64,000 bases of DNA, taken from contig NZ_QPJM01000002.1 of NCBI RefSeq assembly GCF_003337575.1, positions 310,001-374,000 of the forward strand, written 5' to 3'. How positions within the stretch are numbered: position 1 is the stretch's first letter; each line of letters begins with the position of its first letter. Position numbers and translations under genes: made by a program. Shown piece after piece: positions 42,336-49,240 of this stretch. A model generated the notes under the pieces. That model made no database searches and was not told the origin of the DNA. It saw nothing but the letters and a program-made list of their open reading frames with translations. Origin of the DNA: Phyllobacterium bourgognense (GTDB taxonomy: Bacteria; Pseudomonadota; Alphaproteobacteria; Rhizobiales; Rhizobiaceae).

Positions 42336-43131
42336 AGAAACTGCGGACCGGCCGATCATCGTCTTCGACAGCGGGATTGGCGGCCTGACCGTTTTGCGCG
42401 AGGCGAGGGTGTTGATGCCGGACCGGCGGTTCGTCTATATCGCCGACGATGCCGGCTTTCCCTATGGCGAATGGGAGGAGGGCGCCCTGTGCTCCCGCAT
42501 TGTCGATATGTTCGCGGGCCTCATCGCCGAACACAATCCGGAGATTGCGATCATCGCCTGCAACACCGCCTCGACGCTGGTGCTCGATGATCTTCGCGAG
42601 GCCTATCCCGGTGTGCCGTTCGTCGGCACAGTCCCCGCGATCAAGCCGGCCGCCGAGCGCACCTCGTCAGGCTTCGTCAGCGTGCTGGCGACGCCGGGCA
42701 CCGTCAAGCGCGCCTATACCCGCGATCTCATCCAGTCTTTCGCTACGAAGTGCCATGTCCGCCTTGTCGGCAGCCAGAATCTGGCTGCCATGGCCGAAGC
42801 GCATATTCGCGGCGACCACATCGATGACGAAGCCATCGCCAAGGAAATCGCACCGTGCTTCTACGAGAAGGACGGTGACCGCACTGACATCGTTGTCCTT
42901 GCCTGCACGCATTATCCCTTTCTCGCCAATGTCTTCCGGCGCCTTGCACCCTGGCCAGTAGATTGGCTCGACCCTGCCGAGGCGATCGCCCGCCGGGCGC
43001 TGTCACTGCTCAAGCCGAATGGCACCGGTGCCGAGCCCGAACATGGTGACGACATCGCCATCTTCACCTCGGGTAATCCGGATTTCTCGACAAGACGGCT
43101 CATGCAGGGCTTCGGGCTTGCAACAGTGTGA
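42328..43131 (+). CDS. murI: Glutamate racemase
   Basis: 267 aa. DSGIGGLTV at the N-terminus; catalytic cysteines Cys78 (IACNTAS) and Cys193 (ACTHYP). Makes D-glutamate for peptidoglycan. Start ATG 42328 lies inside trmJ, so the pair is coupled. Length typical. Confidence 0.95.
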
Positions 43132-43254: not shown

Positions 43255-46200
43255 ATGAATTTTCGTCATTTATTGCTTGCGGCCGCCCTTGGCCTTTCCG
43301 CTTGTAACGGCTCGGACTCTTCAACGACAAAAAAAGAAGCGGATAGCACTTTTTCCGATCTGGCCAATGCAAAGGCCGAATTGGTCAAAGTGAATGCTCA
43401 AAAAGAGGCTGGAGAAAAGGACAAGATCGTTCTTGCTGGCGAAATCGCAGCTCTGGAAGCCAAGCAGAAAGAGCTGAGGTCGGCGATTGGGAACGCCACA
43501 GCTGAACTTGGTCGGCTGCAAGGTGAGGACGGAAAGGGCGGAGAGATCGCCGCGCAGAAGGCACGTCTAGCGCAGCTGACAAGCGAGACGGAAGACAAGA
43601 CAGCGGACATCAAGGCGGCCAAGGAAACATTGGCGCGGCTCGGCAGTGTCGAAGACAAGAGCAGCGAGATTGGTCTGGCCAAAGCAGCGTATGACAAGCT
43701 CGTCCGGGATGCAGAGGTGAAAGCCGAAGACCTCAAAAAGGCAACTGAAACGCTCAAACGGCTTGCAGGTGGAGAAAGTGAGGGCGGAGAGGGTGGCGAG
43801 ATAAAGGTAGCCAAGGAGACGCTTGCTAACCTCGGGAAAAAAATTGGCGATGCCAACAAAGACCTCAATACCGCGAAGGCTTCGCTCGCAACACTGAACG
43901 GCAAGGACGAAGGCTCAATCTTCGCGGCACAAGAGAAACTCAAGAAGCTGACGGGAGATGGCGCGGATCCCGGCGAAATTGCGAGGGCAACCAAAGAACG
44001 CGACAATCTGCAGGAAGCGGCCCGCAAGGCAAATGACGATCTTGTTGCAGCAAGGCAGAAACTGACGGCCTTGCAAGGGGACGAAGGCAAGGGCGGTGAA
44101 ATCGCCGAGGCAGAGCGCAAGCTGCTTGAGGTCAAGGACGAAATCGCGACCACCAGTGAAATGCTGAAAGCAGCGCGAGAGTCCCTGGAGAAGTTGCAGG
44201 GCAAGGATGGCAGTGACGGTGACATTGCGACGGCGCGCAAGGCCCTCGAAACTCTCTCTGCCGATATCGAAACTGCACAAGACAAACTGGCAGCGGCACA
44301 CAATGCCTGGAAAAAGCTTGCAGGCGAAGACGGAAAGAGCGGTGATATTGCTGCCGAGCAGAAAAAGCTTGACGATCTGATCAAGCTAGCTGGAGACAGA
44401 GCCGAAGAGATTAAGGTAGCACAGGCTGACCTTGAGCGGATCACGCTTGACGGAAAAACCATAACGGACAAGGCGACGCTTGATGCTGCGCGCATTCGTT
44501 CACAAGCGGCATTCGATGCGGGGCGTTTCGACGACGCCGGGAAGTTTCTGACCGATGTCGGCCTCAATGACGAAGCCATCGAATTGTACAAGAAAGCAGG
44601 CAAGATCGACAAGGCAGCGGCGCTGCTGACTGCCGCCGGCAAACTCGAAGACGCCTACAAGCTCTATGCGGTGGAAGACGAGGCGATTACGGACACCAAT
44701 CCTTACGGCGCCGCGACGTACGGCTCGGTCACATTCGATAAGGTCGACGAATCTCCTTCGGTCAAGCGTCATTCGATGCAACTCGGCGACAAGACGGTGT
44801 GGTTTACCGCCAAGGCCGGTCATCTCGTCGCCTACGCCCAGAAGGACAAGAACAATCCAGATGCCAAGCGGGATCCGCAGGCGGCAGTCTTCTATATGAG
44901 TTACACGCGCGATGACCTGCCAAAGGAGGGGCGTCCCGTCACCTTCTTCTTCAATGGAGGGCCGGGCGAATCTTCCATCTGGCTACATCTCGGTGCCTGG
45001 GCGCCGTGGCGGCTGAAGGTCGACCAGCCCAATGTTCCAGCTGATGCCAAGTCCGGCCCTCCCAAGAGCTATCCCTTTGTAGAAAATCCGGAAACCTTGC
45101 TCGACAAGACGGATCTCGTTTTTGTCGATCCCATTGGCGCTGGCTATTCGCAAGCCATCTCTTCGGACGTCAAGAAACACATCAACAAGGATTTTTGGGG
45201 CGTCGACGCCGATGCTAAAGTCATGCGCGATTTCATCACTCGCTATATCAATGTGAACAAACGCCAGAGTTCACCCAAATATTTATACGGCGAGTCTTAT
45301 GGAGGGGGTATTCGCGTGCCGGTCCTGGCCAAATTGTTGATCGATGCCGGAACGACAAATTTTGATGATGACAAATCAGGAAAGCCGCCGGTCGTTCTGA
45401 CGGGTTCGACATTGCATTCGCCCATACTGGACTATGGGTCAAACTGTTCTACCGGCGGAGGTTCATCCTGTGCCGGATATATTCCGACCTATGTATTGAC
45501 GTCCGATTTCTTCGGAAAATCGACCGGACACGACAAAACTCGCCCCTATACGAAGTTTGTCGAGCAATTGCGTTCATTTACCCGGGAAGAATATACCCCG
45601 GCGATCACGGAATATCTGAAAGTGGAGAGGGGGGCTCAATGGACAACCTATACACAAACTTTTCTCGACGAGATGAGCCGATTGACGGGCATTACCGCAA
45701 CAAGATTATCTGATTCCAAGGGGAATGTGACCAACTATGCCAATATCTGGAGACAGTGGCCGACTGTCACCGTCGGCAAATGCGAGCCTGATCGCAAGCA
45801 ACAAGAAGGATATATGAATGCTCTCAAGCCGGGATTCAGTTATAATTTATATGACACCCGGATGGTTCTCGAAAGCAGCGTGCCCTATGATTTCGAGTAT
45901 TCCGAGGATGACGCGTTCAAGGCACGTATGGCGACGTTCGTGCCGGAATATTTGAACTACAAAAACAGTGCCGAATATATCGCATCTCCAAATTTGACAA
46001 ACAAAGACCTTTCAAAGGGTTGGGATTGGGGAACCAATCGCGGTGGTGTAGAAAAGAAAAAGACAAGTTCGCTGTCGGATCTCGCGTTGGCTATCAATGG
46101 CGCGCCAGGGCTCAAACTCATCGTCACGCATGGATATTTCGACGCGGCGACACCGTTTTTTCAGACAGAACTCGACCTTGATGTTGTGGTCAACGTGCAT

Positions 46201-46380
46201 GGTGCCGACGTCAAGCTCTCCGACCGTATTCCAGTCCATAATTTTGAGGGCGGTCATATGATTTATTACGTGGAGAAAGCACGCCCGGCCTTGAAGAGAA
46301 CCATGGACAATTTTTACGACGCGCCTCCCTATACACCGCCAGCCACAGTTCCCGCACGAAAATCGGCTGCTCTGCAGTGA
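43255..46380 (+). CDS. S10 serine carboxypeptidase lipoprotein with long repetitive coiled-coil stalk
   Basis: 1041 aa. Signal peptide with lipobox LSAC (Cys17). Residues about 35-400 are Lys/Glu/Ala-rich helices with 41-residue repeats separated by Gly/Asp loops such as GEDGKGG. About 415-475 is a short TPR-like helical part (FDDAGKFLTDVGLNDEAIEL). About 490-1020 is a serine carboxypeptidase (S10) domain: FFFNGGPGESS, catalytic Ser681 in GESYGG, Asp963 in GYFDAATP and His1001 in GGHM. Ordinary bacterial S10 enzymes are about 500 aa without a stalk. Predicted to be anchored at the outer or inner membrane and to act in the periplasm or outside. Sister gene at 47192, EF-hand gene 11 bp downstream. 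Confidence 0.88.
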   Translation: MNFRHLLLAAALGLSACNGSDSSTTKKEADSTFSDLANAKAELVKVNAQKEAGEKDKIVLAGEIAALEAKQKELRSAIGNATAELGRLQGEDGKGGEIAAQKARLAQLTSETEDKTADIKAAKETLARLGSVEDKSSEIGLAKAAYDKLVRDAEVKAEDLKKATETLKRLAGGESEGGEGGEIKVAKETLANLGKKIGDANKDLNTAKASLATLNGKDEGSIFAAQEKLKKLTGDGADPGEIARATKERDNLQEAARKANDDLVAARQKLTALQGDEGKGGEIAEAERKLLEVKDEIATTSEMLKAARESLEKLQGKDGSDGDIATARKALETLSADIETAQDKLAAAHNAWKKLAGEDGKSGDIAAEQKKLDDLIKLAGDRAEEIKVAQADLERITLDGKTITDKATLDAARIRSQAAFDAGRFDDAGKFLTDVGLNDEAIELYKKAGKIDKAAALLTAAGKLEDAYKLYAVEDEAITDTNPYGAATYGSVTFDKVDESPSVKRHSMQLGDKTVWFTAKAGHLVAYAQKDKNNPDAKRDPQAAVFYMSYTRDDLPKEGRPVTFFFNGGPGESSIWLHLGAWAPWRLKVDQPNVPADAKSGPPKSYPFVENPETLLDKTDLVFVDPIGAGYSQAISSDVKKHINKDFWGVDADAKVMRDFITRYINVNKRQSSPKYLYGESYGGGIRVPVLAKLLIDAGTTNFDDDKSGKPPVVLTGSTLHSPILDYGSNCSTGGGSSCAGYIPTYVLTSDFFGKSTGHDKTRPYTKFVEQLRSFTREEYTPAITEYLKVERGAQWTTYTQTFLDEMSRLTGITATRLSDSKGNVTNYANIWRQWPTVTVGKCEPDRKQQEGYMNALKPGFSYNLYDTRMVLESSVPYDFEYSEDDAFKARMATFVPEYLNYKNSAEYIASPNLTNKDLSKGWDWGTNRGGVEKKKTSSLSDLALAINGAPGLKLIVTHGYFDAATPFFQTELDLDVVVNVHGADVKLSDRIPVHNFEGGHMIYYVEKARPALKRTMDNFYDAPPYTPPATVPARKSAALQ
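43530..44400 (+). repeat. 41-residue helical repeats of the carboxypeptidase stalk
   Basis: Three consecutive units counted at exactly 41 residues (starting EIARATKER, EIAEAERKL, DIATARKAL) with plan E/D-I-A-x6-L-x-x-L...A-x-x-x-L-x-x-L-x-G-x-D-G-x-x-G. Earlier units are 38-44 residues and one is about 19, so the array has degenerated by unequal steps. Each unit reads as two helices plus a Gly/Asp turn. Confidence 0.75.
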
Positions 46381-46390
46381 GATGAATGTC

Positions 46391-46825
46391 ATGAAAAAAA
46401 TGTTTCAAGCTGCTGTTATTCTCGCATTTTTCAACACGTCGGTGGCCGTCGCGATGCCACTTTCCGGCATGGGAGAGATGCATGCTGACGCTGTCGTTCA
46501 AGTCAAGGACGGAAGGTTCGGTTCACCGCCGATCGATCCGAACCTGCCGCCGGTGACCGGTGATTCAATCAATGCGGAGGTCAACGCTGAAGTTGCGGCG
46601 CGCTTTGCGGAAGCCGCGGGTACTTCCTCCGGCTTGCTGACAGTCAGCCAAGCGAAAAACGCGAGCTGGGGCTACGTCGCCGATCATTTTACGGCGATCG
46701 ACCGGGATGGTGACGGTTACGTAAAGCTGGGCGATGTTCTGGATTTCATGCAAGGCAGATCTGGCAGCGGCGTTCAAAGCGGGCAAATCCCTGCCGGGCC
46801 GAAGAGCATCCAGATAGTGGAGTAG
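46391..46825 (+). CDS. Secreted protein with one EF-hand calcium loop
   Basis: 144 aa. Signal peptide (MKKMFQAAVILAFFNTSVAVA), a Pro-rich middle, then the calcium loop DRDGDGYVKLGD with ligands at positions 1, 3, 5, 7 and 12 (Asp instead of Glu at 12), followed by FMQGRSGSG. A degenerate partner hand may precede it around QAKNASWGYVADHF. Lies 11 bp after the stalked carboxypeptidase and likely shares its transcript. Role as calcium-binding partner is inference. Confidence 0.7.
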   Translation: MKKMFQAAVILAFFNTSVAVAMPLSGMGEMHADAVVQVKDGRFGSPPIDPNLPPVTGDSINAEVNAEVAARFAEAAGTSSGLLTVSQAKNASWGYVADHFTAIDRDGDGYVKLGDVLDFMQGRSGSGVQSGQIPAGPKSIQIVE

Positions 46826-47191: not shown

Positions 47192-49240
47192 ATGAAATAC
47201 TGGATTGCGCTCGTTTCTGCATCGCTTTTACTGACCGCCTGCGGTGATGATTCTGGCAACACCAATACCGATAATGCGTTTGTGCCGGCTTCGACCGACC
47301 CGAACGTCGGCACATTTGTGTCGACCGGGGCCGGCCCAAACGTCAATACTCCGAAAGATCCAGAGACGACAGAGGTGGTAATCAAGGGCGTCGCATTGGT
47401 CCCACCCGAGGACCATGTGCTGGAAGACAAGAACGTCTATAGCGCCGCTGCAGATGCGAGCCTTAGGCCAGCGGATGTCGACGAGACGCCCGCCGTCAAG
47501 AATCACCAGATCATGATCAACGGCAAGCTGGTGAAATTCACTGCCTCTGCCGGCCATCTCATTGCCTATGCTCCGAAAGATACCAAGAACCCGGCCGCGA
47601 AGGTTGAAAAGGCATCCATGTTCTACATGGCCTACACGAGGGAGGACTTGCCGAAGGAAAATCGCCCCGTGACGTTCCTCTGGAACGGTGGCCCGGGATA
47701 TTCCTCCGCCTTTCTGCATCTGGGCTCGTGGGCGCCGAAGCGGCTCAAGACAGGTGCTTCCGATGTTGCCCAGGGAAGTCCGAAGAGCGAGACGAAAGGC
47801 TTTTCGTGGATCGACAATGCGGAAACATTGCTCGACAAGACCGACCTGGTGTTTGTCGATCCGCCCGGAACGGGGTTGTCGCAGGCCATCGCACCTTACA
47901 AGAACAGCGACTTCTGGGGTATGGAGGCGGATGCGCGGGTCAATCGCGACTTTGTCGTGCGCTTCGTCAATCGTTACGGTCGGCAAAGCTCGCCGAAATA
48001 TCTTTATGGCGAATCCTATGATGGCATCCGCCTGCCGATTGTCGCCAATCTGCTCGTCACTGCGGGAAGCGGCAATTTTGACCCCGATAAAACCGGCAGG
48101 AAGCCTGTCGCTCTGTCAGGGCTCATGCTGGGTTCGCCGGTTCTCAACCTGGGGACGAACTGCAGCCAGAATGCAGAGGTCAGCTGCGCGGGCTATTTGC
48201 CGTCCTACGCCATGGCGGCTGACTACCACGGAACGGGTACCGGGCGGGGGAAAGCGACCGCACTGGAATATATTGAGATATTGCGCACATTCGTCACGGA
48301 AAAGTACAACCCTGCCCGGAAAATCTGGTACGCGCCAAGGCTCGTTGCAGCCAAGGATATTTATGCCGAAGCCAAGGGCCAATACGACACGGCGACCGGC
48401 CGTTGGCCGAACGCTGCCAGCGCCCGCCAATGGGCGATTAATGTGGAAACCTCGCAGGAAGCGAAGAGAAAAGCCACCGAACTCGCAAACGTGCTTATTG
48501 CCATCCCAGCGGAACGGGAGAGCTTTATCACAGACTTCACGACTGAGCCGGTTGCCACGCTTGAGCAATTTGTCACCAACGCCAAACAGGAGGTCGAGAG
48601 AGCCTTGACGCTGGCGTGGCGGCCCTATGCACAGACGCCGGCTGGTTTGAACTTCTTTAAGGAAATGACAAGCATCACCGGTCTTGCTGCGGATTGGCTG
48701 TATGAATTTGAAGCGTCTCCAGTTCAATTCCTCACCAGGCTCGTTCCAGGCTCAAGCCTCGGTTTCTTTGACGCTCGGGCGAAACTCTCCCACTTTGGCA
48801 GCCCTGCCGCTGCGCTTTATACCGGTGCAGGGTTTGCTGATGCAATAAGGACTGCCCTGCCTGAGATGTTCAACTATCACAACGTTTCGCCCTATATGCT
48901 GCGCGATGACAGTATACGTGGCCCTTGGAAATTCGAGCGCGAACACAAGCTGCAGCCATACAGAACCGGACTTCCGGACTTGGTCGCGACCTTGAAGAGG
49001 GACCCGGCGGTAAGGGCGCTTGCCTTGCACGGTTACTATGACCTGCTGACGCCATTTCACCAGACAGAGCTCGGTCTCGCCGGCGCCGGCTTGGCAGGCA
49101 GCGTCCCGGTCGAACTCTACGAAGGCGGGCACATGCTCTTCGATGACGACAAGGCACGCGCTCAGGCAAAAAAGACGCTCGATGCGTTCTACGATGGTCG
49201 GCCCGCGGACGCTAGCAAGCCGGCTGTCGTGTTACACTAG
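47192..49240 (+). CDS. S10 serine carboxypeptidase lipoprotein (second)
   Basis: 682 aa. Lipobox LTAC after MKYWIALVSASLL. A short Asn/Asp-rich linker leads to the S10 domain: FLWNGGPGYSS, catalytic Ser275 in GESYDG, Asp617 in GYYDLLTP and His647 in GGHM. An insertion of roughly 130 residues (about 385-520, starting IYAEAKGQYDTATGRW) lies between the Ser and Asp parts and looks helical. It shares the anchor, NGGPG and LLDKTDLVFVDP stretches with the 43255 gene but lacks the stalk, so the two are paralogues. Strong GGAGG ribosome site. Confidence 0.88.
   Translation: MKYWIALVSASLLLTACGDDSGNTNTDNAFVPASTDPNVGTFVSTGAGPNVNTPKDPETTEVVIKGVALVPPEDHVLEDKNVYSAAADASLRPADVDETPAVKNHQIMINGKLVKFTASAGHLIAYAPKDTKNPAAKVEKASMFYMAYTREDLPKENRPVTFLWNGGPGYSSAFLHLGSWAPKRLKTGASDVAQGSPKSETKGFSWIDNAETLLDKTDLVFVDPPGTGLSQAIAPYKNSDFWGMEADARVNRDFVVRFVNRYGRQSSPKYLYGESYDGIRLPIVANLLVTAGSGNFDPDKTGRKPVALSGLMLGSPVLNLGTNCSQNAEVSCAGYLPSYAMAADYHGTGTGRGKATALEYIEILRTFVTEKYNPARKIWYAPRLVAAKDIYAEAKGQYDTATGRWPNAASARQWAINVETSQEAKRKATELANVLIAIPAERESFITDFTTEPVATLEQFVTNAKQEVERALTLAWRPYAQTPAGLNFFKEMTSITGLAADWLYEFEASPVQFLTRLVPGSSLGFFDARAKLSHFGSPAAALYTGAGFADAIRTALPEMFNYHNVSPYMLRDDSIRGPWKFEREHKLQPYRTGLPDLVATLKRDPAVRALALHGYYDLLTPFHQTELGLAGAGLAGSVPVELYEGGHMLFDDDKARAQAKKTLDAFYDGRPADASKPAVVLH

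Follow-up and report, generated by a model that had tools for sequence, protein, structure and literature searches.

The stretch analysed here, 64,000 nucleotides of Phyllobacterium bourgognense (positions 310,001 to 374,000 of contig NZ_QPJM01000002.1; hereafter the window), carries a gene, S10a, whose product sets a Peptidase S10 domain (the head) on a long helical stalk behind a lipoprotein signal. S10a (43255-46380, forward strand, as are all features below) is a single uninterrupted frame starting with ATG and encoding 1041 amino acids. Its lipoprotein signal peptide (43255-43305) closes with the lipobox LSAC, and lipidation is predicted at Cys17, the motif being retained in three orthologues. 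There follow a tether (residues 18-33, 43306-43353), conserved in the alignment of the four orthologues and with low predicted local distance difference test scores (pLDDT) at residues 14-35; the stalk (34-421, 43354-44517), mostly helices of ~34 residues with Gly/Asp turns and a 41-residue period; a TPR-like collar (425-471, 44527-44667), recognized from a sub-cut-off Pfam match, AlphaFold2 and alignment; and the head (500-1022, 44752-46320), placed by Pfam, AlphaFold2 and Foldseek. We divide the head into an N-core (500-725), a variable cap (~730-870) and a C-core (885-1022); the catalytic codons, assigned by motif and alignment, are at 45295-45297 (Ser681), 46141-46143 (Asp963) and 46255-46257 (His1001). 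One base past the S10a stop opens the frame of EFh (46382-46825, or from 46391), a small EF-hand-like protein of 147 amino acids identified by frame and linkage, with an export-type N-terminus as judged by eye. Beyond it lies a tandem paralogue, S10b (47192-49240), an unstalked S10 lipoprotein of 682 amino acids recognized by its frame, Pfam, lipobox motif and place in the head tree. An earlier note on this DNA had described the anchor, stalk, TPR-like segment and S10 domain as one gene; that architecture stands, but the note passed over the paralogues, S10b, the EFh gene and the modular exchange treated below. Its own counter-reading, that a frameshift makes stalk and enzyme two genes, is ruled out: the frame is intact in the window and in three orthologues.

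The gene order trmJ-murI-S10a-EFh-S10b-LLM is retained in Phyllobacterium sp. KW56, P. trifolii and Ca. P. onerii, with S10a orthologues in the same place among genes of 95-99.6% protein identity; in two further genomes, G013 and P. brassicacearum, S10a at this locus is reduced to about its first 50 codons. Synonymous divergence (dS) of the three relatives from the window is 0.19-0.35 for flanking genes, 0.95-1.70 for the S10a stalk and 0.91-2.77 for the head. The two parts also disagree about who is related to whom: between P. trifolii and Ca. P. onerii, 14% of stalk and 43% of head residues differ, and between P. trifolii and KW56 the values are 67% and 28%. When the ungapped columns (263 of the stalk, 525 of the head) were permuted 5000 times, no permutation reached this contrast. 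Judged from these comparisons, S10a is a mosaic gene, with stalk and head of conflicting relatedness.

The paralogues give a similar picture. The source genome has seven S10 genes, encoding four stalked lipoproteins (1041, 930, 890 and 861 amino acids), two short lipoproteins (682 and 570) and one protein without a lipobox; a protein is called stalked here if it has a lipobox and its NGGPG motif is preceded by 390 residues or more. Around the 930-residue paralogue (the C3 locus), four genomes have 90-92% DNA identity in the downstream flanks and 85-94% in the upstream region and stalk; their proteins are 67-84% identical in the stalk, 42-47% in the head and 23-35% in the C-terminal half of the head (for the interrupted G013 copy, the first open piece only, a partial head, was compared). 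Among 19 hand-chosen proteins, 16 stalked and three unstalked head neighbours, best head matches lie elsewhere: the source genome's C3 with P. endophyticum C4a (70%), KW56 C1 with the source genome's C16 (76%), Ca. P. onerii C1 with P. trifolii C2 (87%), and G013 with G009 (56%). One cassette can be delimited, in P. trifolii C2. In the upstream region, in the stalk and once more from the 3' end of EFh on, its DNA is of the KW56 same-locus type; the middle, from the end of the linker through the whole head and EFh, matches the Ca. P. onerii C3 locus (88% over 2112 bp), so that one 2.1-kb stretch of head plus partner, at 88% identity, is carried by different stalks at two loci. The block in which the DNA changes partner starts with the collar-equivalent region, and the switch back falls within about the last 60 EFh codons. 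On a quick head tree (100 rows, 15 of them stalked, with at least 380 residues required after NGGPG), similar heads with and without stalks are intermixed, and the stalk label needs 8 changes, at least 6 of them forced by starred branches. We consider modular exchange of heads between stalks very likely.

EFh travels with the head. Of the 53 EFh copies in the genus, 49 follow an S10 match at a distance of no more than 3 kb, and an EFh stands that close downstream of 49 of the 73 S10 matches; over all loci EFh lies behind 67 of the 96 evaluable distinct S10 genes (29 are without it, and four could not be judged). For 14 stalked proteins, leaving out G009:C44 (no EFh), the interrupted G013 and the three unstalked neighbours, EFh identity correlates with that of the C-terminal half of the head when the stalk is controlled for (partial r 0.80, 0 of 3000 permutations). 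Adding the three hand-picked neighbours (n = 17) gives 0.82 for EFh with head and 0.31 for EFh with stalk (16 of 3000 permutations), and adding G013 as well gives 0.82 and 0.30; after removal of the 3' part of EFh, the correlation with the head is 0.87 (n = 14) or 0.88 (n = 17). In these sets EFh type follows head type.

A putative calcium loop of the window EFh, DRDGDGYVKLGD (46700-46735, placed by the loop pattern), has Asp/Asn/Ser ligands, Gly at position 6 and an acidic residue at position 12. A strict EF loop is present in 39 of 63 EFh members, and EF-hand_6 is matched by 32 of the 63, with E values down to 1.5e-7 (threshold 0.01). In the structural model the C-terminal half is confidently helical and the N-terminal third is of low confidence. 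The conserved EFh tail, VQ[IV][IV]E, is a possible plug for the peptidase active site, and a looser form of the pattern fits 42 of the 63; its conservation could also reflect homogenization, because the tail lies inside the shared recombination block. The four unlinked EFh copies of the genus are found beside a broken S10 gene (G018:C1), in a headless stalk-EFh fusion (G019:C4), at G005:C8, where no S10 was recognized in the 5 kb read, and at G017:C28. Two fused frames were seen: (i) L157:2937-3533 (the G019:C4 case) is a 198-residue frame joining the N-terminus and collar of a stalk protein to the EFh C-terminus, the S10 head being missing; (ii) L152:2516-4696 (G007:C1) holds an S10 head and the EFh body in one frame of 726 residues, without the EFh signal peptide and with no recognizable lipobox at its start, and this gene may be degenerate.

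That the head is an S10 domain with the triad Ser681/Asp963/His1001, as the earlier note had it, is borne out by several lines of evidence. Pfam PF00450 scores 50.5 bits (cut-off 21.9; E 2.7e-13), covering profile positions 17-182 of 420 only; Foldseek with the predicted model retrieves a cathepsin A chain (2.9e-13) and carboxypeptidase Y (1.9e-9), in agreement with an alpha/beta-hydrolase fold; and the three residues occur in order, with NGGPG and GESY motifs, Asp963 being invariant and Ser681 and His1001 at least 90% conserved in a 63-row alignment. Mean identity among 15 stalked proteins is 0.60 in the N-core, 0.30 in the cap and 0.45 in the C-core. The cap gives the substrate pocket of S10 enzymes its shape, and an exchange of heads is therefore likely to alter substrate specificity. 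Since the ratio of nonsynonymous to synonymous divergence (dN/dS) of the S10a head is 0.115-0.186, head diversity seems to arise by exchange rather than by an excess of amino-acid changes. Diversifying selection by point mutation is unsupported across the orthologue comparisons (dN/dS at most 0.39).

The stalk period of 41 stands out in residues 26-420 (z 9.1 against 300 shuffles, with a 99th percentile of shuffle maxima of 3.9), and the second-ranked period is 82. AlphaFold2 (whole model: mean pLDDT 82.4, predicted template-modelling score 0.65) places helices at 34-90, 95-135, 138-171, 182-215, 221-232, 239-274, 282-315, 323-356 and 365-421, i.e. eight long ones of 34-57 residues and one of 12, followed by four short collar helices spanning 425-471 and then the head. 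The 41-residue-repeat helical stalk claimed earlier is thereby confirmed, with ~390 helical residues in place of the ~365 first given. Heptad periodicity (3.5), the mark of a coiled coil, was matched by fewer than 3% of 2000 shuffles in five of the eight long helices; it was not significant in helices 34-90, 95-135 and 365-421. No tandem repeats were detected in the stalk at the DNA level, so the repeats are old or diverged, and an origin by recent repeat slippage is unsupported. Nor does the alignment support stalk-length change by whole 41-residue units among orthologues; a 26-residue collar insert accounts for part of the 39-residue gain in two of them. Matches to viral or SMC proteins were weak and confined to helical regions, and we do not identify the stalk with either. 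As for the TPR-like segment of the earlier note, a weak resemblance holds but membership does not: Pfam TPR_WDR35 scores 22.9 bits on the collar, under its cut-off of 27. Two other stalk-like frames were noticed, one at L071:3774-6602 of KW56, where the stalk in front of an S10 head is of another type, repeating every 15 residues (z 13.1, 60 shuffles), and one at L151:4270-4689 (G007:C1), a headless, lipoprotein-like frame of 139 residues with a stalk-like helical region.

From the architecture, linkage, mosaicism, co-inheritance and the one bounded cassette, all of which are read directly from sequence, we infer localization, activity, substrate, EFh role and Ca2+ binding as follows. The lipid anchor would hold S10a at the cell envelope, probably at the outer membrane: the residue at lipobox +2 is Asn (Asp in the stalked C3 paralogue), and under the enterobacterial rule Asn at this position goes with no inner-membrane retention. 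A search for Slam-type surface export gave no match, and neither did its controls. The protein may face the periplasm or the outside, and the projection from the surface or through the periplasm proposed in the earlier note is to be taken as conjecture. The stalk would keep the carboxypeptidase head away from the membrane, where it probably trims peptides from their C-termini, the variable cap presumably determining the choice of substrate. EFh may be the head's cognate periplasmic partner, either a folding helper or a reversible inhibitor (about equally likely), possibly Ca2+-dependent. Head and EFh would change places together, as a single cassette, from locus to locus and from strain to strain; the likeliest route is homologous recombination in two conserved blocks, the upstream one formed by the collar and the start of the S10 domain and the downstream one by about the last 60 codons of EFh. 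Taken as a whole, this reading, in which S10a is an S10 peptidase anchored in the envelope whose head and partner form an exchangeable cassette, is one we hold with moderate confidence. A bolder version would make the lipid-anchored stalks constant platforms, on which each head is swapped from locus to locus and strain to strain along with a Ca2+-sensing partner of its own (an inhibitor, a chaperone or an immunity protein), to give strain-specific envelope peptidases for competition or plant contact; this we find doubtful.

Several other explanations touch parts of the same evidence. Given the short turns between stalk helices (2-10 residues) and weak Foldseek matches to coiled-coil segments (e.g. 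an Smc segment, E 0.031), the protein might be a periplasmic lipoprotein whose helices fold back into a compact bundle, the head working in the periplasm; several turns, however, have pLDDT below 50 (131-137, 174-176 and 357-364), and the monomer model fits an extended or a folded-back form alike. We take the bundle to be a serious possibility without calling it probable. A nutritional role in scavenging peptides, with the stalk a neutral spacer, the heads reflecting food peptides and EFh a generic Ca2+-binding protein, would suit the purifying dN/dS, the retained catalytic residues and the gene numbers (seven in the source genome, 1-7 in 18 of 20 genus genomes), yet scavenging alone does not predict that EFh type tracks head type, and we give it a tentative place.

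EFh itself might be carried along by linkage only, with exchange tracts that end inside it and a role unrelated to the head or minor. With its last 60 codons a shared block, the head and the N-terminal part of EFh must travel together mechanically, and many S10 genes of the genus do without EFh (counts below); yet S10 and EFh genes are paired in Burkholderia, Paraburkholderia, Variovorax and Inquilinus as well, and the in-frame head-EFh fusion of G007 speaks the same way, lipobox-less and possibly degenerate as it is. We judge mere linkage rather unlikely. The joint exchange of a C-terminal part and the small gene directly downstream, behind a constant N-terminal part, could also suggest a polymorphic-toxin-like competition module, in which the stalk presents an exchangeable hydrolytic head and EFh is the cognate immunity protein. 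Every head found is an S10 enzyme, however; a search with the stalk alone in 20 genus genomes gave S10 frames or four short headless frames and nothing else, and no unrelated C-terminal toxin families. Moreover, EFh has an export-type N-terminus, no killing is known, and the heads occur unstalked in many genomes. We consider such a module improbable.

Returning to the envelope peptidase with its head-partner cassette, a number of observations weigh against it. Some dS values are near saturation, and those of EFh and S10b are only moderately raised (0.44-0.68 against the three relatives). The strict EF-loop test fails for 24 of 63 EFh proteins (2 through a misplaced pattern), and the window EFh falls below the Pfam EF-hand cut-offs (16.7 bits, cut-off 25). 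EFh is missing within 3 kb downstream of 24 of the 73 genus S10 genes; 10 of these resemble the non-lipoprotein copy of the source genome (549-636 amino acids, a weak match, one inspected), and the rest include about eight S10b-like second copies and two genes at contig ends. One stalked protein, G009:C44, is without it too. In the 14 stalked proteins EFh also shows a weak correlation with the stalk when the head is controlled for (0.34, 20 of 3000 permutations), and the head dN/dS gives no sign of diversifying selection by point mutation. With the downstream block situated within EFh, moreover, head and EFh may be co-inherited passively.

Among known systems, cathepsin A, carboxypeptidase Y, wheat carboxypeptidase II and KEX1 share with S10a the S10 fold, the NGGPG and GESY motifs and the Ser-Asp-His order; S10a departs from them in its lipobox, long helical stalk, TPR-like collar, variable cap and linked EF-hand-like gene. 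Its recognition of the substrate carboxylate may also differ, since Glu65 of carboxypeptidase Y presumably has no counterpart in S10a. The closest heads belong to unstalked S10 lipoproteins of Burkholderia, Variovorax, Paraburkholderia and other Phyllobacterium, many with a lipobox and a downstream EFh; their NGGPG motif lies at residue 115-226, in one case at 314, as against 394-605 in the stalked type. In contact-dependent growth inhibition (CDI), CdiA-CT/CdiI pairs are exchanged together. The stalked S10 genes resemble CDI in having a more constant N-terminal part, a variable C-terminal part and a small downstream gene, which in S10-EFh, too, is exchanged with the C-terminal part. The abstract of PMC3150448 describes CdiA-CT as polymorphic and paired with a cognate CdiI. 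Unlike CDI, stalked S10 proteins bring a single enzyme family, an exported partner and a lipoprotein in place of two-partner secretion, and they are not known to be toxic. A partner gene directly behind a peptidase also occurs in the secreted staphopain-staphostatin pairs, where it encodes an inhibitor; the partner here differs in being EF-hand-like with an export-type N-terminus. The tetrabrachion-protease of Staphylothermus holds a peptidase off the membrane by a coiled-coil stalk, as is predicted here, with stalk and protease as separate proteins. S10 carboxypeptidases have mostly been studied in plants, fungi and animals, and cassette exchange is best known from toxins; if our reading is right, such exchange extends to envelope peptidases, and head-partner swaps on constant stalks with sharp boundaries would allow a direct test of the partner's role and of the stalk's contribution.

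The distribution of stalked proteins was surveyed in 128 S10 rows, collapsed to 103 distinct proteins; the named loci cover 76 of 145 relatives. A lipobox is present in 73 of the 103. In 16 of these NGGPG lies at residue 394-605, and all 16 are from Phyllobacterium, where they are spread over 8 of 20 genomes, with an interrupted copy in G013; of the other 57, 56 have NGGPG at 115-226, and one, also from Phyllobacterium, is intermediate (314). L031 (NGGPG at 404) was not counted as stalked, having no lipobox and an upstream frame that looks non-coding. The earlier expectation that S10 proteins elsewhere lack such a stalk thus agrees with the survey. In the GTDB family, 297 genomes (five of the genus) were searched with the head, and 50 gave a match at a threshold of 1e-20. 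Of the 47 matched frames from outside the genus, 43 have lengths of 499-611 amino acids, too short for a stalk, and the other four have 867 (with a sedolisin-like C-terminal part), 843 (with a non-coding look upstream), 670 and 696. In the open literature on S10 in bacteria, S10 in Phyllobacterium and the combination of S10 with EF-hand, which mostly does not cover subscription journals, no stalked lipoprotein form appeared among the matches listed. A 950-residue frame at G013:C5:651534 was rejected as a further stalked protein, being instead an interrupted short S10 lipoprotein; in this gene (L158:1402-4254) the break is an insertion-element transposase-like gene, judged by eye. Upstream of S10b, four relatives (L137, L138, L139 and L141) have a diverged second copy of the murI 3' part (79-84% DNA identity), possibly a trace of tandem duplication; in the window this part lies at 42799-42977, and no second copy was found there. 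Two S10 genes, L154:1237-4101 (G004:C33) and L155:1192-3795 (G115:C27), continue in frame into a C-terminal part that by eye resembles S53 (sedolisin).

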